Both the position numbers and the translations under genes were made by a program. From Eucommia ulmoides (Eukaryota; Streptophyta; Magnoliopsida; Garryales; Eucommiaceae): a stretch of 64,000 bases of DNA. Location of the stretch: NCBI GenBank assembly GCA_016647705.1, contig CM028326.1, positions 30,453,401 to 30,517,400 of the forward strand, read 5' to 3'. Below the pieces are notes generated by a model that was not told the origin of the DNA, did not search any database, and saw only the letters and a list, made by a program, of their open reading frames with translations. Of the stretch, positions 1,688 to 59,099 are shown piece by piece; within the stretch, counting starts at the first letter, position 1, and each line of letters begins with the position of its first letter.

Positions 1688-2344
1688 TGATGTAGTAAAA
1701 AATTTTCCGTCACGTGTCAATCTCCACACGTATTAGAAAATCTTTCGTTTTCCTTCCTTACCTGCAAAACCGTGAATTCTAATGGGGAACACCGGTGTGG
1801 TGTCGGCCAAATAACCTCCGGCGTGAGAATAAGTTAAGCTAAATATAGTGAAAATAAATTGCACACTTAAAATCAGAGTCCCCATTACTAGTTACCTTCT
1901 TCCTTTTTATAAGGTAATCTGTTTGTTATCTCTTGAATAGAAATATCATTCAGTTATTTGTATCTCTCTACCGTTATATATAATAGCCATTATCCCCGTA
2001 TTTAAGGGACAATATCTGTAACGGTCCCCATTAATCATGGGCTATCACAGTCAATTCAAACTTATCTTAACGTATACAGGTTTAGACCCAAACTCTGAAA
2101 TGACTGTTTCCTCTTTGGCGTTTGACACATTGGGCTTATACATACCCAATTATAGGTCTTATCATGTGGCCGCTCATATATTCATATAGATCACTTAATC
2201 AGTGTTTGAATCATGGGCTTATGTTGCCCCAGCCCATTTAACAAGCGGGTTTATCCAACTTCAATTCAGGGCCCATATAACGGATCTGACCCGTTTAGGA
2301 TTTTATACCTAGGTCAGTTTGGGGCGGGAGTTTTACACACATCA
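1688..2344 (-). repeat. Tat-1 3' LTR
   Basis: TGATGTAG...CACACATCA repeat, equal in length (657 bp) to the copy at 12078-12734 and about 93.5% identical by hand count. It is the 3' LTR because gag-pol reads on the minus strand. Confidence 0.93.
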
Positions 2345-2359
2345 TTTTCCCTCCTGACT
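2345..2359 (-). promoter_or_regulatory. Tat-1 polypurine tract
   Basis: On the minus strand the bases just before the 3' LTR read GTCAGGAGGGAAAA, a purine run of the kind used to prime plus-strand synthesis. Its place right next to the LTR supports the minus orientation. Confidence 0.7.
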
Positions 2360-2484
2360 TTCACGATGATTCAGACGAAGAGAAATGAAATATCACTTCT
2401 TCTTTGAGTAAGTTCTTCTTTTCATCCCTTCGATTCTCGATATTTTTCTTCGCATTTTGAGTTGCTATTCATTATTTTACAAAA

Positions 2485-5406
2485 TGTCATCAAATCAATC
2501 AATTAATTCCATCAAAGCAGGCTTATCGTCAAATCCTACAATGGAACAGACGGCGACTGCCCCAGCTCCTTCACATTCTAACCTTGATATAGATCTAGAA
2601 GCAAGTAAGTTTCCAATAGAATGACTTTCAGCATTTAGGGAACAATACAGTATCCCATTATCTGTGTCAATTAGGGTTCCATCTAAAGACGAACGTCCTC
2701 AAGATTCAAGAGAAAATTAGGTGTGCTTCTACTCACCCTTCCTTTTTTCTCATTCTTCCGCAATCTTTTTCGCCAAATGGAAATTACTCCAGCTCAGCCA
2801 ACTCCAAATAGTTTTCACCAAATTATGGGAGCCATAGTTCTCGCTAGACAAAATGACGTTACCCATTCTGTTGATATACTTAGAAGCATAAGCCAACTCA
2901 AGTACCTCACCAAAATTGATAGGTATTACCTTTCTATCCCCAAAGAATTTTCGTTTCTTATAAACCTTCCAACGAAGGTCAGAGATTGGTAGCCATGGTA
3001 CCTCTTCTTTTCTGGAGATTGGGAATTATCTTCTGAGGAAATGGGACAGTCCTCAATGGTGCCAAAACGCTTCAGCTCCCCAAGTAATGATATATCTAAC
3101 AGTCTATTTCTCATTTGAAATTCTACTGAAGTGATTTTGATCATATTTATTGATTTATCAAATGCAGGTGATAGTGTTTCTCGGAAATTCGGTCTCACTC
3201 CAAGACTTAAAGAAGAATTGAATAAGCTTCTAATCCCCAAAGGCTGCCTTTATAGAGAATTAGCATATCAGCCATTCGTTTGACCTTCAATAGATCCATC
3301 TCGTCTTCAAGAATTAGTTGAATTGAAGATCAATACCCGAAAAAGGAAGAGACCGGTAAAAAGACTCGCCAAAAAGAATGATCAATCAGTATCCCAACCT
3401 CCTTGGAATGTTACTGGCAGCCCAACCATCCGTCAAGTCATTTCTCATGATGACCCTGAAAGAACAGTATCGGATGATAACTGCCAACCTCTCATCCTTT
3501 GCCGCAGAGGCATTATTCCGGTCGCAATTCCATCCTTGGTTCGCACTACTGAACAAGATCAATGCGAATTATCTTCTACTTCTAGGTCAGCTTCTCTTTC
3601 TAGATCAGCTGATATCCCTGCCACAGAGCCTACTATTGTCGATCCTCTAGTTGTTGATCCTCCTGCAGCTAGTCATCAGTCCTCCCCAACCCCAACTTCC
3701 AGCCAAATAACATGCCGAGGAATGACTAAACAACAAATATGCCAACTTATTGATGAAGTTGGTCCTTCTGTTTCAGGTCGTCATGCTATTTTCGATGACG
3801 CCATTAAATTCCTTTATGATCAATCCTAGGATAAAGACAAGAAAATGACTGAAGGCAAGAACAAACTCGAAATCTTTTGAATGGTGATTTGTGCCCTTCT
3901 CCAAGTATTTGCATCAGTTTAGTCTGTCCTTACTGAATAATCTGACTGTTTGACCTCATTTAGTAACAACCTTATCATGTCAGTGTATGCATATGTCCTC
4001 TGCTCTAGTCAATTGTGCTGAGGACGAGAACGAGCTAGATGCCCAACTGATGCATCAAATGATTGAGCTCAGCAAGGTTGAGGCCAAGGTATAAGATTTG
4101 GAAAATGAGAAATTAAGGCCTACCAGTAATCTTGCCTTGTCCAGATCTTCTCAAGAACAGTTCAGGACTGAATTGCAGTCTACCAACAAACAAAGGAAGG
4201 CTCTCCAAAAGAGTAACGCACTTTTCTATTCTGAGAATAGCGAGCTTAGGATGTCAATCACTACGATCAGAGAAGAATACACGTTTCTAAGAGAAGAATC
4301 CCGCAACCTTTCAGAGGAACTTGCCTCAGTACGTCTGATAATTGACCAGAAGGATGCCGAGATCAAAGAAAAAGATATTGCCCTCCAGAGGCTTCATTCT
4401 AAAAAAGAGTAAATGTCTGTTGAGTTGTCTGTTACACAAGAGAAGGCCAAAAAAGATATTGACGACCTCTGGTCTTCCTTCAAGAAAGAATCAAAAAGGT
4501 TTCAGAAGGTCAGCTTTGCTTTCTGCCAAAGGCTGGTGTCAGATGAGCTTCTTGAGTACGATCTTTCCTTCCTGGATCTTGATGACGAAACAGAAGAAGT
4601 AACCGGAGAACATCATGATCTACCCAGTTCAACAACCGAGGTGCCAGCAGTGAGCTCAGCACGGAATGTTTCTCCTGATCACACCAACTGATAACTCAGC
4701 CAAACTTTGGTCAAAACAACTGATTGCTGCCGATCTGCATCTTTTTATTTTATTTTATTTTAATTTCATATCTTTTCACCTTTATCTTCTATTGGTCTGT
4801 AATTAACTTTATTAATGACCATATCTTTGATCATCATGACCTGTAACTAAACAGTCACAGCCGTTACAATTTTCAAGATTTTTGTGATGATTACAGTATG
4901 TTTTTACCAGTACACGTCATTTCCTTATTTAATCCGTGCTTTTTTCGACGCTTCAATTATCTTCCCTCATTTCTCTTGCTTGACTATTTGAAGGCACCAC
5001 GAGCTCTTCATATATTCAAGAAACCCTTCTTTTAATAGTCATGGGCTCTACCATATGGATTAACGACCCTTCTACCTATTTAAGAATCCAAGTTGAGAGA
5101 AACAACGAGATCGAACTAGGAGAGCACTTTCGTTCTTTGATGCAGACTACCATGAATACCAAAGATGAGTATCCATGCCTTTATGCTATGGAAGAAGCTT
5201 CTGCCATCTTCGCTGCCATGAAATCGGCCCATTTCCAAGTTGTCTCTCACTACCTCGAAGCGAAAAATGAATTGAAAGATGTTGAAAAAAGCAAGAAGGA
5301 TCCGGTCGCTAACTTCAACTATCAGAAGCTTTACACTAATGCCATGAAAGTGAAGAGGGATACACTCCTGAAGAAAAACGAGGAGAAGAGGGAAAAAAAT
5401 TCATGA
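2485..5406 (+). pseudogene. Tat-1 antisense extra gene (Transposase_28-like plus coiled coil), fossil
   Basis: Read opposite to gag-pol. The pieces are 2723-2992, 3323-3829, 4098-4412, 4413-4691 and 5041-5406. The early part has a segment that proposes a run of hydrophobics then TPNSFHQIMGAIVLARQND, and just before it SIRVPSKDERPQDS. Both resemble the N-terminal domain of the plant 'putative gypsy type transposon' family (which I recall as Pfam Transposase_28). The 3323-3829 piece is Ser/Pro/Thr-rich and looks disordered. The 4098-4691 pieces are a long Glu/Lys/Leu-rich coiled coil. 5041-5406 is helical and charged. Antisense extra ORFs at this place are known in Tat elements (Grande, for example). 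The function is not known. It is broken. Confidence 0.75.
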
Positions 5407-5429
5407 ACTAATCCGAAAACTCAACCAAT

Positions 5430-5925
5430 ATGAAGATCATCGATTTTTCCTTTCCAACCCCGACTCAGAGGATATTGACTTTCTTGCTTCTGCAAAATCG
5501 GATTGAAGTGTCTCTCTCTCAGCCCCGGATGAAGAAGAAGAAAAAAAAATGTTTTTTTTTTTTTTTTGTAAGAACAGTTTGTATTTGCTTTTTTCCTCTT
5601 TTTTTTTTTTTTTTTTGAAGAACCCATGTATCAATTTCCTTATAATATGAATGAGTTTTTATAATAATACCTTGTCTGCTCTCCTTCGTAACAAAATTAG
5701 GACACATAACTTAGTTACGAATCTTTGAACAAGTATAAGATAGTAGAAGGATAAACTCTAGAATAATACCTCATTTGCCATCCATCTGAGTATTAAACTT
5801 AATGACTTGCAGGGGCATAATATTCGCTTGTACTGAACTACCCAGCTTAATTAGGAACTTGAAAATGTAAATGCTTGTTGAGCCAATACTTTCTAATAGA
5901 ATACTGAGTTGAACTCTAAGTTAAA
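5430..5925. other. Tat-1 spacer with homopolymer runs
   Basis: Between the antisense gene and the tandem array. It contains A and T runs at about 5540-5615 and no credible gene; the short frames here are low-complexity artefacts. Confidence 0.6.
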
Positions 5926-5929
5926 GAAC

Positions 5930-6535
5930 TTAGTTGCCTGCTAGGCTTAGGTGTACAGTTAAATGATAAGCTGATGTGCTCAGTTAACTTCTAAGTTGAA
6001 GAACTCAGTTGTTTGCTGGGCTTAGGTGCCCACTGAAATATTGAGCTGATGTGCTCAATTAAATTCTGAGTTAAAGAACTCAGTTGTTTGTTGGGCTTAG
6101 GTACCCAGTGAAATGCTGAGCTGATGTGCTCAGTCAAATTCTAAGTTGGAGAACTCAGTTGTTTGCTGGGCTTAGGTGTCCAGTTAAATGCTGAGCTGAT
6201 GTGCTCAGTTAAATTATGAGTTGGAGAGCTCAGTTGTTTGCTGGGCTTAGGTGCCCAGTTAAATGCTGAGCTGATGTGCTCAATTAAATTCTGAGTTAGA
6301 GAACTCAGTTGTTTGTTGGGCTGAGGTGCCCAGTTAAATGCTGAGCTGATGTGCTCAGTTAAATTCTGAGCTGAAGAACTCAGTTGTTTGCTCGGCTGAG
6401 GTGCCCAGTTAAATAGTGAGCTGATGTGCTCAGTTAAATTCTGAGTTGGAGAACTCAATTGTTTGTTGGGCTGAGGTGCCCAGTTAAATGCTGAGCTGAT
6501 GTGCTCAGTTAAATTCTAAGTTGAAGAACTCAGTT
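5930..6535. repeat. 75-bp tandem array in Tat-1
   Basis: The word CTGATGTGCTCAGTT recurs at 5971, 6046, 6121, 6196, 6271, 6346, 6421 and 6496, a strict 75-bp period with about eight units that differ by a few bases. Because 75 is a multiple of three, one minus-strand frame stays open through several units; I take that frame to be a by-product. Tandem arrays between integrase and the 3' LTR are known in Tat-type elements. Confidence 0.92.
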
Positions 6536-6948
6536 AAAAAACACAAATCTCATGGAATTAAACATTTATTTATTTTTCCAAAAAAATGCCTTCAAAAGAT
6601 AACTTATTTAAAAAGAAACAGAGATTTAAGATAAAGAACTCATACAAAATATTTCTGCAAATGGGAGACGTTCCAAGGTCTAGGAACAGCGACTCCATCA
6701 AGTTCTTTAAGCCAATAAGTTCCTGGTCTATTAACTTTAATGTCCCGATAAAGGCCCTCCCAGTTTGGAGCAAGCTTTCCAAAGCGAGCTTCTGGCCGGT
6801 GAGACATTACCCTTCAAAGTACCAAGTCTCCAATGGTGAAACTCCTTGGGCGAACTGCATAATTAAATCTGCGTGCCATCTTAATCTTGTATGTTGCCAT
6901 ACGCATTAATGCCTTATCACGTTTTTCTTCAAGTTGATCCAATTCTTC

Positions 6949-9900
6949 TCATATGCAACCTTCATTGTTTCTTAAATCAGCAGTAGCAACTCTTCTGGTT
7001 GGTACCCCAATCTCAACTGGAATGACAGCTTTAGTTCCATAAGTTAAAGAAAAGGGTGTTTCTCCAGTTGTAGACGTTTGGGTGGTGTGATAAGCCCACA
7101 AAGCTCCAGGAAGTTCTTCTACCCATTTTCCTTTAGCATCATCTAGGCATTTTTTGAGTGCCTTTTTAATTGAACGATTGGTCACCTCTGCTTGTCTGTT
7201 TGCTTGGGGATATGCCAGACTGGACGTTCGATATTGTATCTTGAGCTCATTGTACATCCAACCAACTTTTCCTCCAGTAAATGGAGTTCCATTGTCGGAT
7301 ATAAGAACAACAGGTATGCCAAAATAACAAATGACTTGTTTCCACATAAAATTCTTTACTTCATTTTCGCCCACTGTTACAAAAGCCTCTCTTTCAACCC
7401 ATTTGGTGAAATAGTCTATTACCACCAACAAATATTTTTTGTTTCCAGGAGCTAGAGTAAAAGGACCCAAAACATTCATTCCCCACTGAGCAAATGACCA
7501 AGGACCAGTGATTGGAGTTTGTTACTGAGTTGGGACCTTGATATCATTAGAGAATCGTTGGCACTTGTTGTACTTTCGTACATATTCTGCTGCATCAGTG
7601 CGCATGGTTGGCCAATAATATCCTACTCTTAACACTTTATGAACCAAGGACCTTCCCCCTTGATGATTACCACACATGCCTTCATGTATTTCTTGTAGAA
7701 CATAGCTCGCTTCTTTTGGTCCTAAACACAGCAACAAAGGTTGAGAAAAATATCGCCTATATAGTTTATCGTCGGATAGCACATACCTTGATGATTTATA
7801 AACAATTTTCCTAGCGTCATCTCTGTTGTCTGGTAGGTCTCCTTTCTTCAAATACTGAACTATAGAAGTCCTCCAATCAATTTCTTCATCCAACTGACCT
7901 ATACATACACACTGAGGGGTTGGAGTGATCGATGGCTGATCTAGAAACTCAACCAGTTCAGACTTCTAATCTGATCCCAAAGTCGAACGAAACACGGACA
8001 AAGCATCAGCCTTGGCGTTTTCAGTTCTTGGGATGGCTTCAAATTTGCAGCTCTGAAACTGGGAAGTGAGATCTTTTACTTTCTCTGCATAGAGGCGTAA
8101 TTTGTCTCTATTTATAAGAAACAAGTCATTGACCTGATTGATCACCACTTGAGAATTTGACTTCACTTCCAAATGCTGAGCACCTAACTCCTTGGCAATA
8201 GTTAGCCGAGAACCACTACTTCATACTCCACTTCGTTATTGGAAGCTTGGAAACCTAACTGTACAGCTTTTTCAAGTTGATCTCCCTCAGGTGTTTGTAT
8301 GATTATTCTCACACCACATCCTTTTATGTTTGAGGCTCCATCAACCCATAACTTCCACTGGGCTGCAGAAAAGTATGTTACTACTTCATTCAATGAAGGA
8401 GTAAATTCAGCAATGAAGTCAACTAAAGCTTGCCCTTTGATTATTGTTCTGGGTTTAAACTGGATGAAAAATTCACCCAGCTCAACAGTCCACTTCATTA
8501 GACGTCCAGATACTTCTGGTCTATGCATTATCGCCTTGAGTGGGTATGAGGTCAGCACGGTGACTATTTGTGCTTGAAAACAGGGTCGGAGCTTCCTAGC
8601 AGCAATTACCAAATCTAATGCTAGTTTTTCCAACTCCGTATAACGGGTTTCAGCTGAAACCAACGATTTGCTAACGTAGTAGACCCGCCTCTTCCCTCAT
8701 GTATGTTCTTGAACCAGTGCAACACTTACTGCTACAGGGGTTACTGCCAAGTATAGCTTCAACTCTTCTCCTGGGTATACCTTTGCCAATGTTTCTACTC
8801 AGCCCAAATAATCTTTTATAGATTGAAAAGCATGCTAACAGTCATCATCCCACTAAAAGGTCTTGTTTCCCCTCAAAATTTTGAAGAAGGGAGTACACCT
8901 ATCAGTAAATTTTGAGATGAATCTGTTTAAAGCCGCCAATCTTCCAGTCAACACTTGAACTTCTCGTATAGAAGAAGGGGATTTTAGATTCTTGACAGCT
9001 TCAATCTATCTTGGATCCACTATAATACCGAGCTAATTAACTACGAAACCAAGAAACTTGCCAAAAGTGACCCCAAAAGCGTACTTTTCAGGATTCAACT
9101 TCATATCGTACCTTCTTAGAACAGAAAAAGGTTAAAGCAAATGGGAAAGGTGATATGTTTGCTTAGAAATTTTGACCAGCATATCATCTATATAAACTTC
9201 CATGGTGGTCCCAATTTGATCTTGAAAAATGTGATTCACCAACCGCTGATAAGTAGCACCTGCATTTCTCAAACCGAAAGGCATTACTTTATAACAATAA
9301 ATACATTTTGGTGTGATAAATAATGTTCCTTCCTCATCTTGCTGATCCACGCGGATTTGATTGTAGCCTGAGTAAGCATCCATCATGGACAAGCGTTGGT
9401 GCCCGGCAGCAGCATCAAGCATCTGATCAATCCTTGGCATCGGATAACAATCTTTGGGAATGTTTGATTCAGATCGGTAAAATCCACACACATCCTCAAT
9501 TTTCTATTCTTCTTTTTGATAAGAACTGGATTAGCCAACCATCTGGGGTATGTCACTTCCCTGATGTGGCTAATAGAAACCAATTTCTTTACTTCAGTTT
9601 CAATTACTTGTTCTTTCTCAAGACTAAACGTTCTTCTTTTTTGCCGAACTGGAGGATACAATCTGCAGATATCCAAACGATGAACAACAAGATCAGTACT
9701 TATTCCTTTCATATCAGCCGGGGACCAAGTAAAAATGTCCAAGTTCATTTGAAGTAGTTTCCTGATCTCCGCTTCCTCAGTCTGGCTTAATGATTCGCCA
9801 ATCATAAGCTTCTGAGTTCTATTATTGAAAGTTACCTGTTTAACTTGCTCAACAAGTTGAATCACACTGGTGTGTTATCTAAAATCATCAATCTCTCCTG

Positions 9901-10497
9901 TCGAGTCCACAGATGGACCTGCTTCATGAACTTTCTTTGATTGATATAAAGGAGAGCTTTTTCCCTTCATAGTTATGGAAAAACACTGTCTTGAAGAGGC
10001 TTGATCTCCTCTTATAACTGCTACTGAATCTCTTCTGGCATACTTCACACATTGGTGATACGTTGACAGCTCTCATCGCGTGCAACCATGGACGGCCCAG
10101 AATGGCATTGTATGGCGATATGGAGTCTATCACCATAAACTCCGTGGCCTTGGTGTAACCTTACTCCTCCTTATTGGAGGTGACTAACAAAATAATTTTG
10201 CCACAAGGAGAAGTGCTCGCCATTAAATCCTATCATAACAGTCTGTGTTGAGCTCACGTCTGAGCTCGGCACTCCTATCTGTTTCAAAGTACTAACAAAG
10301 ATAATATTTGTTGAGCTACCATTATCAATCAAGATACGTCGAACCTGGAAACTTGAGATCCACAAAGATATGACTAAGGCATCTTCATGAGGGTGAATAA
10401 TCTCTCTACAATCATCCTCAGAAAATATGATAATAGGGCCTGGCTTTGTTACCACCAACGACTCCCCATAATAACGTTCCAACGTTGCTTTATGCAC
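6949..10497 (-). pseudogene. Tat-1 pol region (PR-RT-RH-INT), fossil
   Basis: Domains in sense order: aspartic protease around 10171-10497 (DNGSSTNIIF), ILGRPWLH spacer around 9924-10136, reverse transcriptase around 9132-9865 with the catalytic box YIDD, RNase H around 7966-8663 (LWVDGASN start, ENAKADALS end), and integrase around 6949-7893 with an H-H-C-C finger (HEGMCGNHQGG, CQRF) and the core motifs IDYFTKWV and SDNGTPFTG. The protease-RT-RNase H-integrase order is that of Ty3/Gypsy. The region is interrupted by several breaks and is not expected to make a polyprotein. Confidence 0.92.
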
Positions 10498-10499
10498 TT

Positions 10500-12001
10500 T
10501 TCTTTTTCATGCACGATTGGATTCCCCAATATTCGGTCCGACTGAATTTATCATAAAGATTACCTCTCGATTTTCTTTAGGAGACTCTTTATTCCGCTCT
10601 TTTTCTCGATGTTCTTCACCTTGGCTATCACTTCTGGGCCTCTTTTTGTCCCTGGGACGATCTTGCATATAATCACGCAATTGTCCCAAGTCCTCGCTTG
10701 ATCTCCTTCTGAAGCTCCCAGCAATCATCTGTATTGTGACCATGATCCTTATGAAAATCGTAATACTTAGAAGGATTCTTCTGATTTGACTTAGTGGTCT
10801 GTCTGGAAGGCCATTGAATTATATCAGACGTATGAATCTCTTGCAGGATCCGTGAGATTGGCATGCACAATCCAGGAAAGCCTGGTTCCTAGCGAACTGC
10901 TGGCTTGGAATTTGAATTCCTTGATTGGTCTTTACGCCTATCAGACGTGCCAGTTTTAGCCTTGTCAATGTCTTTCTCATTTTGCCTAGGATGATCGCGA
11001 AATAACCCCCTGCCTTCTCTAGCCAACTTTACATCTTCTAACTTCATATAAGGCTTGGATTTCTCCATCAGCTCCGTCATACTCCGAGGGCACTTTTTGG
11101 TTAAAGCATCTTGGAATCGGCCAGGACGCAAACCTGATGTAAAAGCATTGATAACAAGATTTGCATCACAACCTTCAATACAAGTCAGTTTCTCATTAAA
11201 CCGGCTCATATACTGACGCAAAGTTTCTCCTTTCTCCTGACGCAGAGCTAGTAGAAAATCCGGTCCTTTCATTAACCTCTGACAAGTTATGAAACAGTTG
11301 ATGAACGTTTTTTTAAACTCATTAAACGATGTTATAGAGTTCGCAGGAAGAGAATGCAGCTATTTAAGAGCTGATCCCTTCAGAGTGGTCGCAAAAGCTC
11401 TGCAAATGGTGGAATCGCTGGAATTATACAAATTCATGACATGTTTAAACTGTCGGATATGGTCAACTGGATCAGTTCTCCCATCGTACTTTTCAAACTT
11501 CATTGGATCGAACCTTTCAGAAAGTGGGATAGCCAGTATTTCCGAGGAGAATAGCATCTCAGTACCCTTCAATAATGCATCCAGCTCGTCCAGAGGCCGA
11601 ACTCTCTCCACTTGACTCCTAATCTGTCGATGTGAATCAACAGTCTCAGTTTGAGTATTGGTCCCTCGTTCTGGTTTATGACTGGCCTCTCCATGGGCAG
11701 GTTGTTCTTCATAAAATTGAGGATCAACATATCGTGGAGTTTCTACATCATCCCTGACTCCATGAGTGCTCTTATTAACCTGCGACCTGTTATCAGCGAT
11801 TATGCCAGCCATGTACTTGATAGTTTCTATCATCTCGGCCATTTTCGCATTAAGAGCGTCTATCTTTGCATCCATATTTATTGCAACAGATGGCATATCA
11901 GACGGAATCTCTTCACGCTGCTGCGAACAATCATCTTTGTGCTGTTCCTCAGGCACATCTAGGACTGACAGCGGTGGTAAGTCATTATTCCGACTAGTCA
12001 C
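10500..12001 (-). pseudogene. Tat-1 gag region, fossil
   Basis: The first piece (11360-12001) has an acidic disordered head, then a retrotransposon gag start (ILAIPLSERFDPMKFEKYDG, HIRQFKHVMNLYNSSD). The next piece (10889-11272) has the gag core with GETLRQYMSRFNEKL and INAFTSGLRPG. Downstream (10673-10870) YYDFHKDHGHNTDDC is a degenerate zinc-knuckle type motif. This is typical of plant Tat gag. It lies directly after the primer-binding site, as expected. It is broken in a few places. Confidence 0.9.
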
Positions 12002-12059
12002 CGGTGCCCTAGCTCACAAGTACCTTATATCAGCAACGTAGTGTTTTACATTCGTTTTC

Positions 12060-12077
12060 CTATAGAAAGGCGCCAAA
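12060..12077 (-). promoter_or_regulatory. Tat-1 primer-binding site
   Basis: On the minus strand the bases right after the 5' LTR read TTTGGCGCCTTTCTATAG. The TGGCGCC start is the usual plant Ty3/Gypsy tRNA-complementary form; I cannot name the tRNA with certainty. Confidence 0.7.
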
Positions 12078-12734
12078 TGATGTAGTAAAAAATTCTCAGT
12101 CACGTGTCAATCTCCACACGTATCAAAAAATCTTTCGTTTTCCTTCCTTACCTACAAAACCGTGAATTCTAATGGGGAACACCGGTGTGGTGTCGGCCAA
12201 AGAACCTCCGGCGTGAGAATAAATTAATCTAAATATAGTGAGAATAAATTTCACACTTAAAATCAGAGTCCCCATTACCAGTTACCTTCTTCCCTTTTAT
12301 AGGGTGATCTGCTTGTTATCTCTTGAATGGAAATATGATTCAGTTATTCGTATCTCTCTACCATTACGTATAATAGCCATTATCCCCGTATTTAAGGGAG
12401 AATATCTGTAACGGTCCCCATTAATCATGGGTTGTTACAGTCAATTCAGACTTATCTTAACGTATACAGGTTTAGACCCAAACTCTGAAATGACTGTTTT
12501 CTCTTTGGTTTTTGACACCTTGGGCTTATACATACCCAATTATAGGCCTTATCATGTGGCCTCCCATATATTCATATAGATCACTTAATCAGTGTTTGAA
12601 TCATGGGCTTATGCTGCCCCAACCCATTTAACAAGCGGGTTTATCCTACTTCAATTTGGGCCTCATATAACGGATCCAACCCGTTTAGGATTTTATACCT
12701 AGGTCAGTTTGGGGCGGAAGTTTTACACACATCA
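12078..12734 (-). repeat. Tat-1 5' LTR
   Basis: Starts TGATGTAG and ends CACACATCA, followed by the duplicated target ATATC at 12735-12739. Same length as the 3' LTR. On the minus strand a TATA-like CCCTATAAAAGGG lies near 12294-12306, in a place that would suit the sense promoter. Confidence 0.93.
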
Positions 12735-12960
12735 ATATCCCTCTTGAAATAAAGAAATATTAATTATATCCCAAAATTTTAAAAAGTCAATTTAAAATTA
12801 ACATTTAACCCCCAAAAATACTCAAATATTTATTTATACCATAAGTAATATATCAAATAATCTCAAAAATATCAAATACTCATCTATACAAAACAACCCT
12901 AAAAAAACGTTAAACTTACATAAAATAATTTTTTAAAATATAAATTTTCGAGGTATTACA
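12735..12960 (-). mobile_element. Solo LTR, right part (other side of the Tat-1 insertion)
   Basis: Picks up directly from 1687 once Tat-1 is removed and ends in CGAGGTATTACA at 12960, the inverted match of the 873 edge. See the entry at 873-1687. Confidence 0.5.
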
Positions 12961-14800
12961 AGTTGTGCATCGACCTAGCTTACCCACTGCTTCGGCAAAA
13001 GCGGAGGAAGAAGACAAAAGGGGGGAAATTGAAAAACAAGAGTTGGGATTCAGTAAGAATATTTCATCAGTGTTAAACCAAAATGATCCTATCCTAGCCA
13101 GTCAGAAACTCCTAATCCCCTCAGAGATGCTCCCAATCCCCTCAGAGATGGCCCCATTTCTCTTTCTAATGCTTGTTGTTCTATGGATGACCAGATGAAC
13201 TTTGATTGACTGTCATGTGTGGAGAAGTACCATCAACTATCGTGGGATTTTTTGTTCTTCTTCAGTTGGTAGAATCAGGAAAATAGGGGATAGTTTGGGC
13301 TTATCCCATTTACTTGACAAAAGATAATTAACCCCAACCATGATCCTCCATGCATTAAGACCAACTGGGTCATGTAGAGATTGGAGCAGTTGAGGAGCTC
13401 GTGAATGAAGTGGTAGGAAGAGAATCGAGCCCTGTCGACTAGAGCATCTACGGTGCCCAAGACGTGGCAATACGTCGGGATACTACCATCGAGAGGACGA
13501 CCAATGTGAGCACTTAAGGGATATTGAATCTCTCAAAGAAATCGTTGATCCTCTCTTGACCGATAACATATTTTTCCTTCATTTTGGCATCTACCTCAAT
13601 ACCCTAGAGTAGATGACTTGACTTGGCATAGGAGGGGGAAGATCGTCCTCCTCAACACCCAAGGGTTGCTTGGCACCCCCTGGATGGTCGGTCCTTAAAG
13701 ATGGGCCAACGCCACCTAGGCAAGAACTAACAACTAAAAAAGGCCCGACTCTATCAATCATGATGATATCATTAGACTCTTTGAGTTGTTAGATGATGTT
13801 GGAATTTCTAAACATGGTCGAAAAATAAAATAAGACAAAGAGGTAAAGAGAAAAAAAAAAAAAAGAATTGGAAAAACAAATTGATAGAAAGAAACACGAC
13901 AAAAACAAAAAAATGATTGTTAGATTGAAATTGCAAAATTCTTATTGAAAATCAAAAGAAAATTGTCAAACTGCAAGGGGTCTTCCGGAGAAGTTTAAGA
14001 GTGAAGTGAGTTCTTTGAAATGTGAAAGTGAAGAAATGAAAGTCCCCCTTTTATAAGGGGCATCAACTGCTCACACCAACCCAAATCGATAGTTGAGATG
14101 GTTCAAAACCTTGGGGATACGAAACAACACAAGCCGTCAAATCATAATGCAATGAATGATGTCGTGAAACTCAAAGCATCGTTGCTAATTTAAATTTTCA
14201 CTCCGAGGACCTCTTACTCGTGAACACTCGAGACTTCCATTCCAATCCCGATCACTTGGGCATCCGAAATAGGGACAATTGATGGAAGGTATTTTGGGAA
14301 TACTCGACCAAACAGAGTTACTTGAAGCGAAATCGCAAATAGAAATCGAAACCCCGAGCCATATCCCAGAAGATGAGTAATAACTTACACTCAGGATGGA
14401 CATGGTTTGGGGCCTCGCCGATCAGCCCAGTACCTCATCCATTACTAGGGACTTACTACCACCCCCACCAAACAAAAAAAGGTGAGCGGGTGACTTATTC
14501 TAAGGCACTAAGCCCTCAATCCCACGATTTTAGGGGATGATTAAAGGAGATCATGTTGGATTTTAAAGGACTTACTCACCAAGTCAACCCATGCCTATAC
14601 ATACATGGGGGCACAATCAAGTAGGTATATCGGATCTCTCCTACTTACAAAAACTCTTATCAAATTTCTACTATGACTAAGACTATATTAATTCTTGCAC
14701 AGAAGGTTCCCAATAGGTGCACTTGCGTGTGCATTATCTGCACAAACTCCTGATTTGGATTGGAGACAAAACACATATGTGATGATTCAAGATCAAACAT
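12961..14800 (+). mobile_element. Tat-like fragment (Tat-4), 3' part only
   Basis: I infer this from its minus-strand content. At about 13275-13440 a minus-strand reading gives FSSYHFIHELLNC, then QLVLMHGGSWLGLIIFC, which lines up with the antisense-gene domain of the other three Tat copies. Beyond it on the minus strand lie a pyrimidine-rich leader and a TATA-like box (14045-14060). The rest, to about 14800 (ending CATCA), may include an LTR whose start I cannot fix. No gag or pol is visible. If the antisense gene is on the minus strand, the element itself points to the plus strand. It is a broken remnant. Confidence 0.5.
14045..14060 (-). promoter_or_regulatory. TATA-like box before the Tat-4 antisense gene
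   Basis: The minus strand reads CCCCTTATAAAAGGGG, a symmetrical TATA-like box, followed by a pyrimidine-rich leader of roughly 200 bases before the first antisense-gene sequence. A similar arrangement is seen in Tat-2 and Tat-3. Confidence 0.45.
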
Positions 14801-15098: not shown

Positions 15099-15593
15099 TT
15101 GAAGTTTCTTTTTAATTTTTTTTAAAGAAGAAACTATTTCACCTAAATGTTTTGCAAAACATTTAATTGAACTTTAGAAAAAACAAACCCGAACCAAACC
15201 AACAAAATTTAAAACCGAGCCGAACTAAATTGAATTCCAATAATTTGGTTCAGTTTGATTTTTTTTTCTAAACAAAATAGTTCAATTCAATTTCAAAAAA
15301 AAAAAAAAATCAAAATCAAAATATTCTGGAAAAACAGTGACAGAGCCGCTGCCTGTGTTACGATGCCATTCCTTGAGACAAATGAACCCTACGCTCTTAA
15401 CGGACTGTTCGGCCATACTTCTCTCTCTCCCACCCTCTCGATGTGGTCTTCCGATGACCACGTTCCGCCCACGATACCTTCTGATCTGTAAACCTCTAGA
15501 AGAAAAGGCAGGGCAATGACGGCATCATCAATGGAGATTTCTCTCCTCAACAGCACCGGCAACTACTCATGAACTCGCTCATCGTCGTCCGAA
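15099..15593 (+). promoter_or_regulatory. Presumed promoter and 5' leader of the PPR gene
   Basis: The stretch changes from A/T-rich DNA with A runs (15294-15310) to balanced composition from about 15340, as expected for a plant leader. I see no clear TATA box at a fixed distance. The short frames here are not credible as genes. Confidence 0.35.
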
Positions 15594-18383
15594 ATGGTAA
15601 AGCCCCTCCGGACCCAAGCTCTGATTCACCTCCATAGGCACTGCCCTTTATTGGGTTCGCACAGGTTTCTCAACTTCTCTTCAAATCCCCACATTTCATC
15701 TGATTTCGAACTCTCGCCGTCCCGGCATGAGTTGCCCAATATAGTCTCCAAGGTCTCTAAAATACTCTCCGAGCTCCAGTGGCAACGGAGCACGGAACTT
15801 GAGCGTCTTTCCCCTCAGCTCAAACCTTTTCATGTCGCCAAAATTATCGAAACCCACAGCAACACCAATTCGGCTCTGCAATTCTTCTATTGGGTCTCTA
15901 GGAGACCTTTCTACAAACACGACTTTAGCTGTTATGTGTCGATGTTAAATAGGCTAGTCCTTGATCGATATTTTGCGCCTGCGGATCATGTTAGGATTTT
16001 GATGATCAAAGCTTGTAGAAATGAGGAAGAAATTAACCATGTTATCAGTTATTTGAATGAAATCAGCACGAAAGGTTTTGGATATAGTTTGTATAGTTTT
16101 AATACTTTGTTGATTCAACTGGGGAAGTTTGAGATGGTTGGGGCGGCTCACAATGTTTATGGGCAAATGTTGAGTAGTAGGATCAAACCAAGTTTATTGA
16201 CTCTCAATACAATGATAAACATATTATGTAAGAAGGGGAAAGTTCAAGAGGCCGAGTTGGTTTTAAGTCAAATATTTCAATATGATCTAAGCCCAGATGT
16301 GTTTACATATACTTCGCTAATTCTAGGGTATTGTAGAAGCCAAAATTTGGATGGGGCATTTCGGATTTTTGACAGGATGGTGAAGGATGGTTGTGATCCA
16401 AATGAGGTTACATATTCGACCCTTATAAATGGGCTATGCAATGAGGGACATGTGGATGATGCACTTGACATGTTTGATGAAATGCTTGTGAGAGAAATTG
16501 AACCGTCGGTATACACATACACCAAGCCAATTACATCATTATGTGCAATTGGACGTGCCGATGAGGCTGTTGCTCTTGTAATAACCATGAGGAAGAGGGG
16601 TTGTCGACCGAATGTTCAGACATACACGGCTCTCATTAGTGGATTATTTCGATCGAACAAACAAGAGGTGGCAATTGGTTTGTACCACAAAATGGTGAGG
16701 GAGTGTTTGGTTCCAAGTGCAATCACGTATAATGCGTTGATCAATGAATTGTCTGCAAACAAAAGAATCGACCATGCCTTTAAAATTTTCGATTGGATGG
16801 AGGGACATGGTAATTTAGCAAATGCCGAAACCTACAATGAGATTATGGAGGGATTGTGCTTAGTTGGTGATATCGAGAAGGCTATGGTTATGTTCAACAA
16901 AATGCTGAAGGTGGGTCCTTCCCCAACAGTGGTTACATATAACACGCTGATTAATGGATACCTAAAACGTGGGAATCTGCAGAATGCTGTGAGATTATTG
17001 GATTTTATGAAGGCAAATGGGTGTGAACCAGATGAGTGGACGTATGCAGAGCTAGTTTCGGGTTTCTGCAAAGGAGGAAAACTCGATAGGGCATCAGCTT
17101 TCTTCCATGAAATGACAGGGCGAGGTTTGACTCCGAAACATGTTGTTCATACTGCCCTGATTGATGGTCACTGTAAGGAAGGGAAAGTAGATGTTGCCCT
17201 GTCATTACTTAAGGGGATGGAGGAATCTGGTTGCGATCCAAGTCTTGAAACTTACAATGCCATTTTAAATGGATTGTCCAAGGAGAATAGGTTTCCCGAA
17301 GCGGAGGAACTGTGTAATAAGATGGCAGAAAAAGGTTTGCTGCCAAATGTCATTACCTACACAACTCTGATTGATGGGCTTTGTAGGAATGGCGGTACAC
17401 GTCTTGCATTCAAGATTTTCCACGAAATGGATAGAAAGAATTGCTTCCCGAATTTGTACACTTACACTTCGCTCATCTACGGATTATGCCTCGAAGGACA
17501 AGCTGATGATGCAGAGATGTTGCTTAAAGAGATGGAGAAGAAAGGGTTGATTCCTGATGAGGTTGCATACACGTCATTAATCAATGGATTTGTAATGATC
17601 GATAGGCTAGATCATGCATTTTCACTTCTTTATCGGATGATCAATGGCGGCTGCAAACCAAACTACAGAACCTATGGCGTAGTGGTGAAGGGTTTGCAAA
17701 AGGAATATCAGTTGCTTTCCAAGAAGGTAGCAACTCAAAATGAAGTAGTGTATGGCTTCAGTTCAGACAAGAAGGATGTTGGTTTCGAAGTTATATCTAA
17801 CCTATGTCTTAGGATGTCTGACAATGGGTGCGAACCCACCTTGGAAACCTACAGTACTTTGGTTGTTGGCCTGTGTAAAGAAGGCAAAACTTATGAAGCT
17901 GAGCAGTTGGTTAAAATTATGAAAGAGAAGGGCTTGTGTCCTGATGAACAGATGTGTCACTCTCTTCTAGGTGCTTATTGTAAGAGTTTGAGAGTGGATC
18001 ATGCACTGGAAATCTTCAACTTAATCTTGGATAGAGGCTTTAGGCCGCGATTATCAACTTATAAAGCGCTTATTTGTGCTATGTGCAAATCAGGCAGGGT
18101 AGAAGATGCTCAAGTTTGTTTTGAGAATATGCTTGAAAAACAATGGAACGATGATGAGATTGTTTGGACTATTTTAGTTGATGGGTTGCTCAAAGAGGGG
18201 GAGTTAGATGCATGCATGAAGCTTCTTCACACCATGGAATCTAAAGGCTGCGCTCTTCATTTTCAGACGTATTTAACCTTGGCAAGAGAATTGTCCAAAG
18301 TTGGAAAATCAATTGATACAATGCATGTTGTTGATAAATTGAGGAAAATGATGGATAATACATCTGGCTTGGGTTGTCCTTAG
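15594..18383 (+). CDS. P-class pentatricopeptide-repeat protein, At5g65560-like
   Basis: An intact, intronless frame of 929 residues. Residues 1 to about 45 are basic and hydroxylated with few acids, as in a mitochondrial presequence. Residues about 45-165 form a conserved N-terminal helical region. From about residue 166 there are roughly 20 tandem 35-residue PPR motifs (for example FTYTSLILGYCRSQNLDGAF), broken by one degenerate stretch near residues 700-740 and running almost to the C-terminus. There are no E or DYW domains, so it is P-class. Such proteins bind organellar RNA one base per repeat and act in processing, splicing or stability. The layout and ends resemble Arabidopsis At5g65560, which I name from memory. 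The start is the first ATG of the frame. The RNA target cannot be told from the sequence by eye. Confidence 0.95.
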   Translation: MVKPLRTQALIHLHRHCPLLGSHRFLNFSSNPHISSDFELSPSRHELPNIVSKVSKILSELQWQRSTELERLSPQLKPFHVAKIIETHSNTNSALQFFYWVSRRPFYKHDFSCYVSMLNRLVLDRYFAPADHVRILMIKACRNEEEINHVISYLNEISTKGFGYSLYSFNTLLIQLGKFEMVGAAHNVYGQMLSSRIKPSLLTLNTMINILCKKGKVQEAELVLSQIFQYDLSPDVFTYTSLILGYCRSQNLDGAFRIFDRMVKDGCDPNEVTYSTLINGLCNEGHVDDALDMFDEMLVREIEPSVYTYTKPITSLCAIGRADEAVALVITMRKRGCRPNVQTYTALISGLFRSNKQEVAIGLYHKMVRECLVPSAITYNALINELSANKRIDHAFKIFDWMEGHGNLANAETYNEIMEGLCLVGDIEKAMVMFNKMLKVGPSPTVVTYNTLINGYLKRGNLQNAVRLLDFMKANGCEPDEWTYAELVSGFCKGGKLDRASAFFHEMTGRGLTPKHVVHTALIDGHCKEGKVDVALSLLKGMEESGCDPSLETYNAILNGLSKENRFPEAEELCNKMAEKGLLPNVITYTTLIDGLCRNGGTRLAFKIFHEMDRKNCFPNLYTYTSLIYGLCLEGQADDAEMLLKEMEKKGLIPDEVAYTSLINGFVMIDRLDHAFSLLYRMINGGCKPNYRTYGVVVKGLQKEYQLLSKKVATQNEVVYGFSSDKKDVGFEVISNLCLRMSDNGCEPTLETYSTLVVGLCKEGKTYEAEQLVKIMKEKGLCPDEQMCHSLLGAYCKSLRVDHALEIFNLILDRGFRPRLSTYKALICAMCKSGRVEDAQVCFENMLEKQWNDDEIVWTILVDGLLKEGELDACMKLLHTMESKGCALHFQTYLTLARELSKVGKSIDTMHVVDKLRKMMDNTSGLGCP

Positions 18384-32919: not shown

Positions 32920-34339
32920 AAAAATAGAACATGCATGCCAACGCGTTGGCTAACCTAGTTTCCGTGGTGTAATACACCCTCAAGTAGACTGTGCTCGTTG
33001 AGTACCTAGCCAAGTCGAGCACGATTGCATCAGATAAGGTTTCCATTATATGCGCCCTCAGTTCCGACCCATCTTGGATGGATCCGATCATAAATTACCT
33101 AGAAGATAAGATATTGTCGGAAGACCAAGCTGAGTCCAGGAGGATGCGTTTCCGAGCTGCAGGGTATATCCTCCTTGATGGGGTATTGTATCGTAAATCT
33201 TTCTCGAGTTCTTACTCCAAGTGTCTCTGACGTGAAGAATCCAACTACATCATGCGAGAAGTCCATGAAGAAATTTGTGACAACCACTCAAGGGGCAGAT
33301 TTCTAGCTCGGAAGTTGCTCCAATACGAATGCTATTGGCCGAGAATGCAAAAAGATGCTGGTAAATTCGTGAAGAAGTGCTACAAGTGCCAGAGATTTGT
33401 CGCCCACCCTCACATACCACCAACTGATCTAGTGCCCATAACTAGCCCTTGGCTATTTGCTCAGCGGGGCATCGACCTCCTCAGCTCGTTCTCTTAGGGC
33501 ATCGGCCAGAGAAAGTTCCTAGCCATAACAATTGACTACTTCACGAAATGGGTGGAAATCGAGCCCCTAGCCAAGATCACCAAAGAGAAAATCAGGGACT
33601 TCATGTGGAAAAGCTTGATCTGTCGATTGGGCATCCCCAAGGTAATCGTCTCAGATAATGGAAAGCAGTTCGACAACGATCTGATTGTCGACCTCTGCTC
33701 GAACTTGGGGATCAACACACACTTCTCCTCCCCGGGCTACCCTCAGGCTAATGGCCAGGTCGAGGTCACCAACAGGACAATTTTACAAAATTTGAAGAAA
33801 ATGATGGACAAGTCAAACGGCCTATGGGTGGAAGACCTCTACCCCGTTCTCTAGGTTTATTACACAATGGTCAGAACCCCAACTAGGGAAATACCCTTCA
33901 CAATGACCTTTGGGTCTAAGGCCGTTATCCCAGTTGAGATCGACATGCCGTCACCACGGACAACAACCTCATTCGACTAAGCTGAAAACGAAGTAGCTTT
34001 AGCTTTGAGCCTAGATCTCCTAAAAGAAATAAGGAAAAGAGTTCGGGTGTACCAGGATGCATACCTGCAAAAAGAAACCCGATATTAAAATCGAAAGGTC
34101 AGACCTCGCTCATTGACGTCGGAGATCTCGTTCTCAGGAAGGTCACTCTGGCCTCCAAGGACCAAAATGCCTGCAAGCTCACTCTACTTAGAAAAGACCT
34201 TACAGGGTAATGCGTGTAGCTCGAACCGATATGTATGACCTGGAAACAGAAGAAGGAGTACCCCTAAGATACCACTGGAACGCCGAACACTGAAATACTA
34301 CTACCCTAAAGAGGAAGTGCTGATCCCGAGGTTTTGATG
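32920..34339 (+). pseudogene. Tat-3 RNase H end and integrase, fossil
   Basis: HANALANLVSVV is the usual RNase H tail. The linker 32991-33230 is followed by the integrase finger (HEEICDNHSRGR...CYKCQRF, about 33255-33395), the core motifs IDYFTKWVEIE and VSDNGKQFDN, and the PGYPQANGQVEVTNR block in 33552-33854. The C-terminal part, with VGDLVLRKVTLASKDQNACK, lies near 34110-34170. The RNase H-integrase order fits Ty3/Gypsy. It carries several breaks. Confidence 0.88.
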
Positions 34340-38199: not shown

Positions 38200-39968
38200 A
38201 GTTAAGGAGTTGCACCGGCCTGACCTTCTCTAGCACTGGCGTCAGCACTGGGTATGGCTTCGCCACCCTAGCCTCTCTCAACCTCATCCACTGGGAATTC
38301 CATTCAGAGGGTTTGGTAGGGGACGTCAGGGTACTGGCGACGGAGGGAGCAGATGGCGGTGTCGAACCTTTCTTATATTATCTCGACGCTAATTTTGATC
38401 ACGAGATTCTTATAGTCCTGGTTCTTCATCCATGCCCCCATGACCTCCCTCTCAGCTCGGGCTACTGCTTTCCTCTTAACCACCTCGGCAGTACCGCGTT
38501 GATCAATCACCTTCATAAGGTTGTTATTGTACTTCTCGGTCAGGGAGCGCAGTGCCTCTTTATCTTTCCTCAGTTGCTCGATCTGGGCTTGTTGCTTCTG
38601 ATTTGCGTCTTCCAGCTCACTCACCCTTTCGAGGGCTTCATTACAGCCCTTCACTGCCTCAGATTTCTCCTTGGCTAGGGTATTGAATGCCTCACCACCT
38701 CGGTGCACGCATAGGCCCATCTCCGCAACCTTAAAAAGGCTCTACATCGAGGAAAATGGGAAGTTAGTGTGTAAAAAAGGGAAAATTCTACAAGTTATGA
38801 AAAGACACCGGGAAGAGGAGTTATCGACATCACATTCTTATAGACCTCCGTGGCCAGTTTAACGTCTGTCTTGGATGCGATCTTTTTCCAATCATCAGGA
38901 GGGGTGATTCTGTAGATTTAGATCGGAAGAATCTTAGGATGGTCAACAATTCAGTTCCTGAGCTTCAGGCTGGTGTCAGCAACGAAGGTTCTAGCCCGTT
39001 TTGGCTAGTTGTCTTTCTTGTTCCTTTTTCTCTGCGGCTCGGCCTCCACCGCAGTTACCTTCCTCTTGCCCTTATCCTTCATCTTGCTTTTATCCCTTCT
39101 CTCAACGGGGGATAGACTCTCCTCCTCCTCCAATGGGATGACAGGCGCAACTGGGGTAGAGACCCTCCCCTCTGGTGCTGACCTCGTCGGGGTTCCGTGA
39201 GAGGCTACTTTGGCAGAGGTGTGCTCACCCTATTGCCTTTCTCCACCACGCTGGCCACCTCACTGGGAACCAGATTCGACGGCGGTGGCCTCTTGTTGGG
39301 CCTGCTTGTCCATTGCCAATTTCCTCATGGCAGCCTTATCCATTACTACACATAGAGAGTGGCATTGATCAAAACAAACATGCATGAAAAGATTCAAGTA
39401 CAAAAACGTTGTCGAGCTGAGGTGAGAGAACTTACTATTTTTTGTTCAAGGGAAGGATCACTCCAAAAGTACAAATTGTACAGGGTCGACGAGATCAGTG
39501 CCTTGATGTGGTTGAAGGGTGTCTACACAATTCGATCTCAATCATCGATGATCTCTGGGCTAGGTTTGTTTTTCTTCGGTGTTGAAAATACACAAAAAAA
39601 AAAAAAGTTAGGCAAAATTACCGAGGAAAAAAATGCTTAAACTCACACCAAGACTAACACTTACCTACTGTCCCCTAGTGCATCTGGACCGGGTGGTCTA
39701 TATCTGCAGGCAAGCTAAACTCTCATACTTTTCTAGGCTTCCAATTCTTTTTGGAGTCATCGTAGCCACCCAAGAATTTCTGTCGGGCTGTGATATAGTA
39801 CCAACCCCTACCACCAGGCATAGACTTGGCAAGGAAGAGAGCCCGAAAGAGTTTCAGGGACGGGACGATGCCCTTAGCTAAGAAGATAAAGTGGGTTGCC
39901 ACTACCATTCTCATGTTGTTGGGAGAGCGTGGTGACGGACACAACCTAAGATCCCAACAGATAGCCCG
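38200..39968 (-). pseudogene. Tat-3 antisense extra gene, later part, fossil
   Basis: Read opposite to integrase. Minus-strand 39723-39944 gives FLAKGIVPSLKLFRALFLAK and GGRGWYYITARQKFLGG, the middle of the 'putative gypsy type transposon' domain. 38373-38720 gives a long coiled coil (ALERVSELEDANQKQQAQIE, QLRKDKEALRSLTEKYNN). Between them lie Ser/Pro- and Lys-rich pieces, and possible introns are usual here. The N-terminal part lies across the inserted array at 46651-47160. It is broken. Confidence 0.72.
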
Positions 39969-41426
39969 CGATAGATGTGATCTACCTACATATTCCCAAA
40001 CCGGTTTTGTTAGTTTTAGATTATTTTTATAGTTATTTTTATTATGTTTTAATTAGTTTTTATATTTTTTGTATAAATCAGGTGTGTGGGGTAAAAATGT
40101 ATGAAACTGGAGCGAAAACGATGAGATCGAACCAAAAACGGTGGAAAAACAAGCTCGGAGGCAAAATTGTGAAAGAAGCCCACAGCGGCGACGATCAACC
40201 AACCGACATACCCACTGCCTAGGCGGTGACCTCTACACAAACTAAAGATATTTTTAGATATTTTCCCTATTTAAGCTCTCATCCTCCCTCATTTTTGTCT
40301 CTCTTGGAATTTTGAGCCCCTTAGAGTATATCTAAGGGTAGGTTTAGGAGTTTTAGAGGGAGAGCTCACATCCTGAAGTGGAGAAAGACGGCGAAGCGAT
40401 CGTTGAACGTTCTTAACGGTAAATCTTCGGACGAGGCTAAGTTTTTTTTATTTCTTCTCTTATTTCTTTAACTTAGGATTTTGTGAGCATATTTAGGTCG
40501 ATTTCAATGTTTATACGGTTATGACCACGAGCTAAATATGGATTGTATAGGGATTAACCATATATTTATAAATATGTGTTTGGATGATTTTGGTATTGCG
40601 TTTATGTTTGTTCTTCGTAGTTTGATTGTGTTTATTGTATTATTTGTTTATCATGCTTAGATAGATAAATGGAGAATACGGGGTTTAATAAACCCTAGAT
40701 TCGAATTAGGGTAAACAAACGCCATGATCCACTAACCCGGTAGGGGTTAGGATTGTGGACAACCGATGACGTTGGGGCAAGACTCACCTGACCTAGGGTC
40801 GTTAAGACGTTGAGGGAGACTTCTTCGTTAACTCGAAGTCATGTATTGCCCCGTCTTACACTCGGGAAAGGTGGCGGTGGAGTTTTAGAATCGAGATTGT
40901 CGATAGGGTAAACACGATGCGATGATCCAATAACCCGGTCGGGAGTTGGATTGTATGCAATCAATGACGTTGGGGCGAGACTCATGCGACCTAGGGTCGT
41001 TAAGACATTGAGGGAGATTTCTTCGTTGATACGAAGTCGCGTTATATTTCCCGTCTTACACTCGGGAGAGGGCGAAGGTGTTTTAGATACCGAGATTGTC
41101 AAATAGGTCGAACACCGTAAACATTAGTAAATTGAGATCGAACACGTATTTATAAATACGTTAATCTTTAGGCAATTCTTTCCCCTAAAACATATTAGTG
41201 TATTAGTATAGTTAATTTAGGTTATATTAGTATTAGTTTAATTAATTAAATACATTTATTTTTAGCCTAGATAAAGTTAGGTCATGAGAAGCGCGGTTCT
41301 CGATAATGACGACACCAATCCCTGTAGATACAATAATTTGATCTTTCATGATCACACTATACTAAAACTTTGACCTCATACACTTGCGAGTAGTCAATAC
41401 GTGAGGATCAAATCCTTTGCCGTACA
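39969..41426 (+). repeat. Athila-like LTR A
   Basis: About 1.46 kb, from (C/T)GATAG(A/G)TGTGATCTACC to GCCGTACA. Shorter than B and C, mainly in the G/C-dyad region. Contains two related about 200-bp blocks (GGTCGTTAAGACGTTGAGGG-type) around 40720-41100. Confidence 0.88.
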
Positions 41427-41435
41427 AGTTTTATT

Positions 41436-58858: not shown

Positions 58859-59099
58859 GGTTATATTTGTTTAAGTGGTTTTGGGGTATTGCAAATGAAT
58901 GATTGAGATTAAATGTTAGCAAAATTGATGTTGTGAGATTTGAGTGTATCATTAACACTTAAAACATGAATATATCATCGATGGAACGAAAAATAATATC
59001 AAAAGAGCGCATTGAGTTGTGTAAATATTTTTGAAACCATTAAAAAGGAAAACAAAAAATAATTGGAAAACATTTCAATTAACTCTTTGGATGAAATTA

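Follow-up and report, generated by a model that had tools for sequence, protein, structure and literature searches.

Antisense genes are an established component of Retand retrotransposons in plants. As reported in the survey of Vicient (2025, PMC11963269), antisense genes with the Transposase_28 (TRP28) domain are found in 97% of Retand clusters and tandem arrays in about half of them; another source gives TRP28 in 23% of Retand elements, against PMD in 57% of Ogre elements, and describes for both groups an additional RNase H located between the RNase H and the integrase (PMC6317226). Two individual genes of this kind, likened to the one analyzed here by description only, are gene23 (GENE23) of maize Grande, which is antisense between pol and the 3' long terminal repeat (LTR), has its own promoter and encodes a nuclear protein (PMC7264820), and ORF4 of the Silene latifolia Retand element (Kejnovsky 2006, via PMC7264820), an antisense open reading frame (ORF) with Transposase_28. 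The subject of the present analysis is Tat-1, an element that occupies positions 1688-12734 of a 64-kb stretch of Eucommia ulmoides DNA (the window), which is part of the same 947-Mb genome that was searched for related copies. Opposite to its gag-pol, Tat-1 carries two genes, A (2484-4691) and B (5041-5506), and purifying selection acted on the proteins of both during the time in which the family was active.

The boundaries of Tat-1 are defined by a pair of LTRs of 657 bp with about 93% identity, the 3' LTR at 1688-2344 and the 5' LTR at 12078-12734 (both on the minus strand), which read TGATG...CATCA on the LTR strand with both ends exact, and by a 5-bp target site duplication (TSD), ATATC, at 1683-1687 and 12735-12739. 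Just inside the 5' LTR there is a TGGCGCC stretch, which we take to be primer-binding-site-like. The internal part (about 9.7 kb) encodes on the minus strand the remnants of gag-pol (6949-12013), in which Pfam searches identify gag (10889-11359), RVT_1 (9132-9503), RT_RNaseH (8202-8696), an additional RNase H, RVT_3 (7969-8220), Integrase_H2C2 (7522-7965) and rve (6949-7521). RVT_3 is thus placed between RT_RNaseH and Integrase_H2C2, the position of the additional RNase H in Ogre and Retand, and because TRP28 is present, Retand is preferred over Ogre; the favored assignment of Tat-1 as a Retand-type element rests on this domain. Between gene B and the integrase, a 75-bp unit is repeated 8.4 times in tandem (5907-6535). 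An array with the 75-bp period is also present in 9 of the 10 sister stretches fetched, and the integrase lies downstream in the opposite orientation in 8 of these 10 (one stretch is too short and one lacks an integrase). The layout, in which a TRP28 ORF lies antisense in the region from pol to the 3' LTR and tandem repeats occur in the same region, is that of the Retand elements described in PMC11963269, and the LTR and internal sizes of Tat-1 are inside the Retand ranges given there.

The earlier note on this DNA, made from the sequence alone, had proposed a gene-like region antisense to gag-pol between the integrase and the 3' LTR of Tat-1, with a plant transposon-type domain followed by a Ser/Pro-rich part and a coiled coil, and the LTRs, the TSD and the Pfam matches bear out a plus-strand coding sequence in this place. 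The Pfam search of the separate pieces, which had been set beforehand, did return a domain: segment 2687-2989 (plus strand) matches Transposase_28 (PF04195) with an E-value of 0.0019 and 18.8 bits, under the curated cut-off of 26.2 bits, and among four sister copies two score above this cut-off, at 29.3 and 28.8 bits, and the other two below it, at 24.8 and 22.2 bits. A first look across the genome yielded 2006 candidates for the TRP28 piece, 1125 for the coiled-coil piece and 1442 for the piece of the second ORF, of which 150 per piece were scored; since all 150 matched for each of the three pieces (that is, at least 150 matches each), the antisense region is more than a chance occurrence. 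The order TRP28, following pieces, coil start is the same in 25 of the 29 loci around TRP28 matches, the exceptions (L015, L016, L020 and L023) being interrupted or truncated. Together with the sister layouts and the Retand literature (PMC11963269), these counts uphold the proposal that the region is a standard part of the lineage.

Comparison of the copies was based on an alignment of 27 rows, the window and 26 of the 29 loci (L015, L020 and L023, in which the gene is interrupted, were excluded). Locally unrelated stretches in L016, L019, L029 and L038 raise the nonsynonymous and indel counts; these rows were kept in most alignment counts, dropped from the stop-clustering test and, with L030, from parts of the private-change spectrum and stop-codon counts. 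The alignment strongly supports a structure in which gene A would consist of three plus-strand exons and two GT-AG introns. Exon 1 (2484-3083) contains the ATG (in 23 of the 27 copies) and the TRP28/Transposase_28 domain (approximately 2625-3082). Predicted intron 1 (3084-3167) has GT in 25 and AG in 25 of the 27 copies (acceptor 3166-3167). Exon 2 (3168-3904), delineated by alignment and codon-level constraint, encodes a nuclear-localization-like basic patch (3335-3382), with 7-9 basic residues out of 15-16 in all 27 copies compared with 4.6-11.2% basic residues elsewhere, at the start of an otherwise unconstrained Ser/Pro-rich linker (the Ser/Pro-rich part spans 3284-3730), and ends with a strongly constrained block (3731-3904). 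Predicted intron 2 (3905-3983) shows GT in 25 of the 27 copies and its acceptor AG at 3982-3983. Exon 3 (3984-4691) encodes a coiled coil in its first part and an acidic tail, and its stop codon (4689-4691) is present in all 19 copies compared. The coiled coil, previously described as strong, holds for 4095-4409, where heptad periodicity is significant (p = 0.004), and does not extend to 4413-4688, where it is absent (p = 0.95). At its inner end the 3' LTR holds TTTATA (2302-2307, plus strand) in 20 of the 27 copies, a candidate core promoter of gene A by consensus match only.

In the predicted introns, length changes that are not multiples of three are shared among copies (1 nt common to 6 copies in intron 1 and 4 nt common to 11 in intron 2), and in exons 1 and 3 no length change is common to three or more copies. 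The unspliced donor of intron 2 has 83 genomic matches with at most two mismatches and its reversed control has none. Searches for spliced gene A junctions give zero genomic matches at up to two and up to three mismatches (the first junction pattern, when reversed as a control, produced 5 chance hits and the second produced none). If only RNA of the gag-pol strand is reverse transcribed, these introns, being antisense to the genomic RNA, would not be removed in retrotransposition and would be inherited, and the zero count would fit introns of this kind. Predicted intron 1 varies remarkably little for intronic sequence, with a nonsynonymous-like rate of 0.06-0.08 in every frame, and may hold a signal for splicing or regulation. 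An additional leader intron at a conserved GTAAGT near 2406 was considered and rejected; one copy (L022) is without the stretch, but its junction, derived from translation, does not fit GT-AG removal.

Gene B (5041-5506, plus strand) encodes a small protein with an acidic C-terminus. In the window its ORF runs from 4984 to 5403 with the ATG at 5041; the ATG is present in 19 of 21 copies, and the stop-to-stop frame is 173 aa in three distinct sister copies. A TATA-like box, TATTTAAA, precedes it at 4985-4992 in 18 of 19 copies, the exception being the window copy, which carries TATTTGAA instead; the ATG follows the box after about 50 bases, with up to about 40 extra bases between them in some copies. 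Neither Pfam nor PDB yields a convincing relative of gene B, and its heptad pattern is not significant (p = 0.11). Thus, the interval 2485-5406, which had been taken for a single gene, spans gene A, apparently with two introns, and gene B.

Selection was assessed from the ratio of nonsynonymous to synonymous change (dN/dS), obtained by the Nei-Gojobori method for every pair of copies; LTR sequence treated as though it were coding served as the control. In the TRP28 exon dN/dS is 0.30 in frame versus 0.95 and 1.11 in the remaining plus frames; in the block at the end of exon 2, the most constrained part of gene A, it is 0.20 versus 0.72 and 0.90 off frame; in exon 3, 0.31 versus 0.67 and 1.04; and in gene B, 0.31 versus 0.75 and 0.78 in the other plus frames. 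The controls give 0.68-0.75 (LTR) and 0.58-0.73 (leader), and pieces of the integrase from the same family give 0.41 (9 rows) and 0.33 (8 rows). Bootstrap intervals are 0.21-0.44 for exon 1b, 0.12-0.32 for the exon 2 end, 0.24-0.38 for exon 3 and 0.22-0.44 for gene B, and the interval of the LTR, 0.60-0.81, is higher than all of these. Constraint is weaker in codons 1-78 (0.45) and at the start of exon 2 (0.47). The Ser/Pro linker, which is present as earlier proposed, has a dN/dS of 0.61 versus 0.52 and 0.55 off frame, indistinguishable from the control, so that no codon constraint is detectable there. Stop codons follow a similar pattern: across the 27 rows the coding frame contains 33 stops in exon 1b (105-329 in the other five frames) and 48 in exon 3 (129-340 in the others), and at the exon 2 end it contains 20, with 16 in one minus frame.

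The distribution of variants among copies indicates when this selection acted. In the three constrained parts of gene A (exon 1b, exon 2 end and exon 3), the ratio of synonymous to nonsynonymous changes is 96:239 among private variants (in one copy) versus 119:104 among shared variants (in three or more copies; p = 6e-9). The same comparison gives p = 0.75 in the LTR, 0.7 in the linker, 0.09 in codons 1-78, 0.05 at the exon 2 start and 0.04 in gene B. Amino acid changes are depleted among shared and not among private variants; therefore, selection acted on the lineage of active elements, not on dead copies. The copies are undated, and this comparison stands in for one restricted to young relatives, for which the earlier note had named neutral dN/dS as the outcome that would speak against a gene; the ratios found among family members are well below those of the non-coding control.

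Both antisense genes of the window copy are themselves broken by decay. Gene A contains in-frame stops at 2622, 2990, 3281, 3827, 3878, 4092 and 4410, and its frame undergoes a net shift between 2717 and 2732. Gene B loses its frame toward the end, with a shift near 5.39 kb. At eight stop positions that were inspected, the stops result from G-to-A or C-to-T changes at Trp, Gln and Arg codons. The Trp codons at 2622 and 3020 are stops in 12 and 11 of the 27 copies, respectively, and these positions and their sister counterparts are possibly mutational hot spots. Among the 23 rows used for the clustering test, the carriers of either stop (10 each) do not resemble each other significantly more than random sets do (fractions 0.14 and 0.21). 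Read-through or recoding at these two stops was considered and set aside, recurrent mutation being simpler given unclustered carriers and G-to-A changes at Trp codons. Methylation-driven decay is poorly supported as well, with 66 of 223 private changes being C-to-T or G-to-A compared with 81 of 223 for the reverse transitions, uncorrected for base content.

Several observations weigh against the two-gene model with a spliced gene A or against the strength of its support. Exon 2 has one frame-breaking 1-nt length change common to 3 copies, the acceptor AG of intron 2 is found in only 22 of the 27 copies, and there is an alternative in-frame donor at 3884 (GT in 26 of 27); the donor at 3905 is preferred because the seven codons 3884-3904 look constrained (0.16). 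The zero count of spliced junctions equally fits no splicing at all. Read as coding, the introns also give low ratios (0.33, 0.24 and 0.48 for intron 1; 0.60, 0.51 and 0.41 for intron 2), which rest on 25-26 codons and have no one favored frame. The bootstrap intervals of codons 1-78 (0.34-0.62) and of the exon 2 start (0.29-0.79) overlap that of the LTR. Ratios of 0.26-0.45 are obtained in the minus frame that shares third positions with the coding frame, in the pieces N2, TRP28, CC0 and CC1 and in gene B; such values are expected because wobble sites are shared, and this minus frame is not open in the constrained parts of gene A, with 95-129 stops in 27 rows. The Fisher test treats variants as independent, and the relatedness of the copies makes its p-values optimistic. 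The TRP28 copies were picked by protein similarity to TRP28 of the window, which biases that exon and does not apply to the exon 2 end, exon 3 or most gene B rows. Rows without any stop in the right frame number only 6, 12 and 7 of 27 in exon 1b, the exon 2 end and exon 3, respectively. DNA binding by TRP28 is unsupported by structure models or solved relatives: a search of solved-structure sequences with exon 1 and gene B, each from a single sister copy, as queries found nothing below an E-value of 0.19, and models of single window sequences, with a mean pLDDT of 57 for the TRP28 piece and 49 for gene B, are too poor to use. The coiled coil and gene B also have weak Pfam matches in unrelated helical families, which were not counted as evidence of homology. 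Finally, transcription, splicing and nuclear entry of gene A are inferred from sequence.

With these points taken into account, it appears moderately probable that the gene A protein of this Retand-type element works in the nucleus as an oligomeric regulator and is translated from a spliced antisense mRNA, this estimate covering the explanation as a whole, that is, two antisense accessory genes together with the regulator role, including the deduced transcription, splicing and function. Transcription of gene A would begin at or close to the inner end of the 3' LTR, and that of gene B at its own TATA box; the basic patch would take protein A into the nucleus, the coiled coil would oligomerize it, and the TRP28 domain might act on the DNA or chromatin of the element, regulating transcription or silencing, with protein B as a possible small partner. 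Such a regulator is favored because the basic patch is found in all 27 copies, heptads are present, the Grande protein is nuclear and its gene has its own promoter, and TRP28 is predicted to bind DNA (PMC11963269). Given that selection in a multicopy family needs a benefit that falls mainly on the encoding copy, action on the element's own chromatin or RNA would also be favored. A protein that acts after transcription, joining the pre-integration complex and bringing it into the nucleus or directing the choice of the integration site, is a possible but rather unlikely alternative. It has been discussed by Vicient and Casacuberta (2020, PMC7264820), it is compatible with the basic patch seen in all 27 copies and with the coiled coil, and the constraint on gene A is of the same order as that on the integrase; gene A, however, is located in an antisense unit of its own outside gag-pol, so that its product would have no default packaging with Gag-Pol.

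It is improbable that the antisense transcript rather than a protein is what matters, by pairing with the genomic RNA and tuning its silencing, even though regulation by antisense RNA is known from other retroelements (PMC7264820, PMC12786077). This role predicts no favored frame, whereas dN/dS is unequal across the plus frames in the constrained parts; furthermore, the ATG, the stop and the splice sites are kept, and amino acid changes are depleted among shared compared with private variants. Least probable of all is a relic, a captured or nested sequence with chance open frames that is carried passively. In its favor are the broken state of both genes in the window copy and the stops found in most copies; against it are at least 150 matches per piece, purifying selection and a second, diverged element of the same layout. 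The relic reading is disfavored for the family, yet true of the dead copy in the window.

The mode of action suggested for the nuclear regulator may be likened to that of HBZ of HTLV-1, an antisense gene of an LTR element that is driven from the 3' LTR and encodes a nuclear protein, with gene A showing sequence hints only (TTTATA in 20 of 27 copies and the basic patch). HBZ is spliced and contains a leucine zipper. HBZ differs in belonging to another virus family and host, and the comparison concerns how the proteins may work, with no homology claimed. The nuclear location of HBZ is noted in PMC11963269.

The second element of the window is of the Tat type and has LTRs at 49046-50066 and 57835-58859 that are 88% identical. 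A TRP28-like piece, a GDDW motif and a coiled-coil-like frame are found at 50956-53038 on its plus strand, antisense to the integrase at 54969-55931, and donor- and acceptor-like sites, judged by eye, occur at approximately the same two places as in Tat-1, past the GDDW motif and directly before the coiled coil. A genome-derived TRP28 profile, run on 2715 segments of the window, matches five of them at E-values of at most 0.022: the Tat-1 domain itself (2687-2989, plus strand, E = 1.6e-5); a decayed piece of another element about 540 bp outside the 5' LTR of Tat-1 (13278-13532, minus strand, E = 2.7e-11, the strongest match in the window); the second Tat element (50956-51132, plus strand, E = 0.0021); and two minus-strand segments at 39726-40052 (E = 0.01) and 46680-47018 (E = 0.022). 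The last two look like one TRP28 copy split by a repeat array, giving four copies. The count of four homologous copies in 64 kb, as originally proposed, is thus reached with a sensitive profile; no Pfam match at an E-value of 0.1 is obtained for the four segments beyond Tat-1, three of the E-values are weak, and BLAST of the window with the Tat-1 pieces yields no second copy beyond a marginal one (46743-46799, E = 0.005). The direct-repeat array at 39965-46650, with pieces of about 0.1-1.3 kb and 78-95% identity, seems to split the TRP28-bearing sequence. Integrase pieces of a third related element are present at 32994-33971 (plus strand), and a PMD (PF10536) match at 63627-63998 (minus strand, E = 8.1e-11) runs off the end of the window; for Ogre elements, PMD is the domain that PMC6317226 reports in their additional ORFs. 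The window also contains a single open frame of 936 aa with pentatricopeptide repeats (PPR) at 15573-18383 (plus strand), an ordinary host gene beside the elements, and direct repeats with a spacing of about 195 bp and up to 97% identity, possibly a satellite, at 60175-61034.

Antisense TRP28 genes of Retand elements are a kind of gene already published. In the survey, some Retand clusters have a coiled-coil-type (Smc) match in an antisense ORF, and ORFs of at least 600 bp are treated singly, whereas in Tat-1 TRP28 and the coiled coil are apparently exons of one gene; beyond the survey (PMC11963269), the present analysis measures selection in the Tat-1 family and describes another, small gene preceded by a TATA-like box of its own. 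The survey text, as far as it was covered, does not contain the words 'intron', 'synonymous', 'purifying' or 'coiled', and 'splic' appears in a reference title only. With respect to the covered text of PMC11963269 and the literature searched, a scope outside which several older papers lie, the new details are the apparent split of gene A into exons, the selection at codon level and the second gene with a promoter presumed to be its own. The chances seem about even that the TRP28 ORF and the separate 'Smc' ORF of some Retand elements belong as exons to a single spliced antisense gene whose introns are inherited, accompanied by an independently promoted small antisense gene, both under selection of about integrase strength, and that the two proteins together make up an antisense regulatory unit like those known from complex retroviruses.

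What antisense genes do in plant retrotransposons is a question that both a review and a survey have raised (PMC7264820, PMC11963269). The frame-specific selection on both genes, at a strength like that on the integrase, indicates that proteins, not only antisense RNA, are needed by active elements. The parts of first interest are accordingly TRP28, the block preceding the coil, the coil itself and gene B, not the Ser/Pro linker. The intron model could explain why such genes appear as several short ORFs, and it predicts splice junctions that can be tested.

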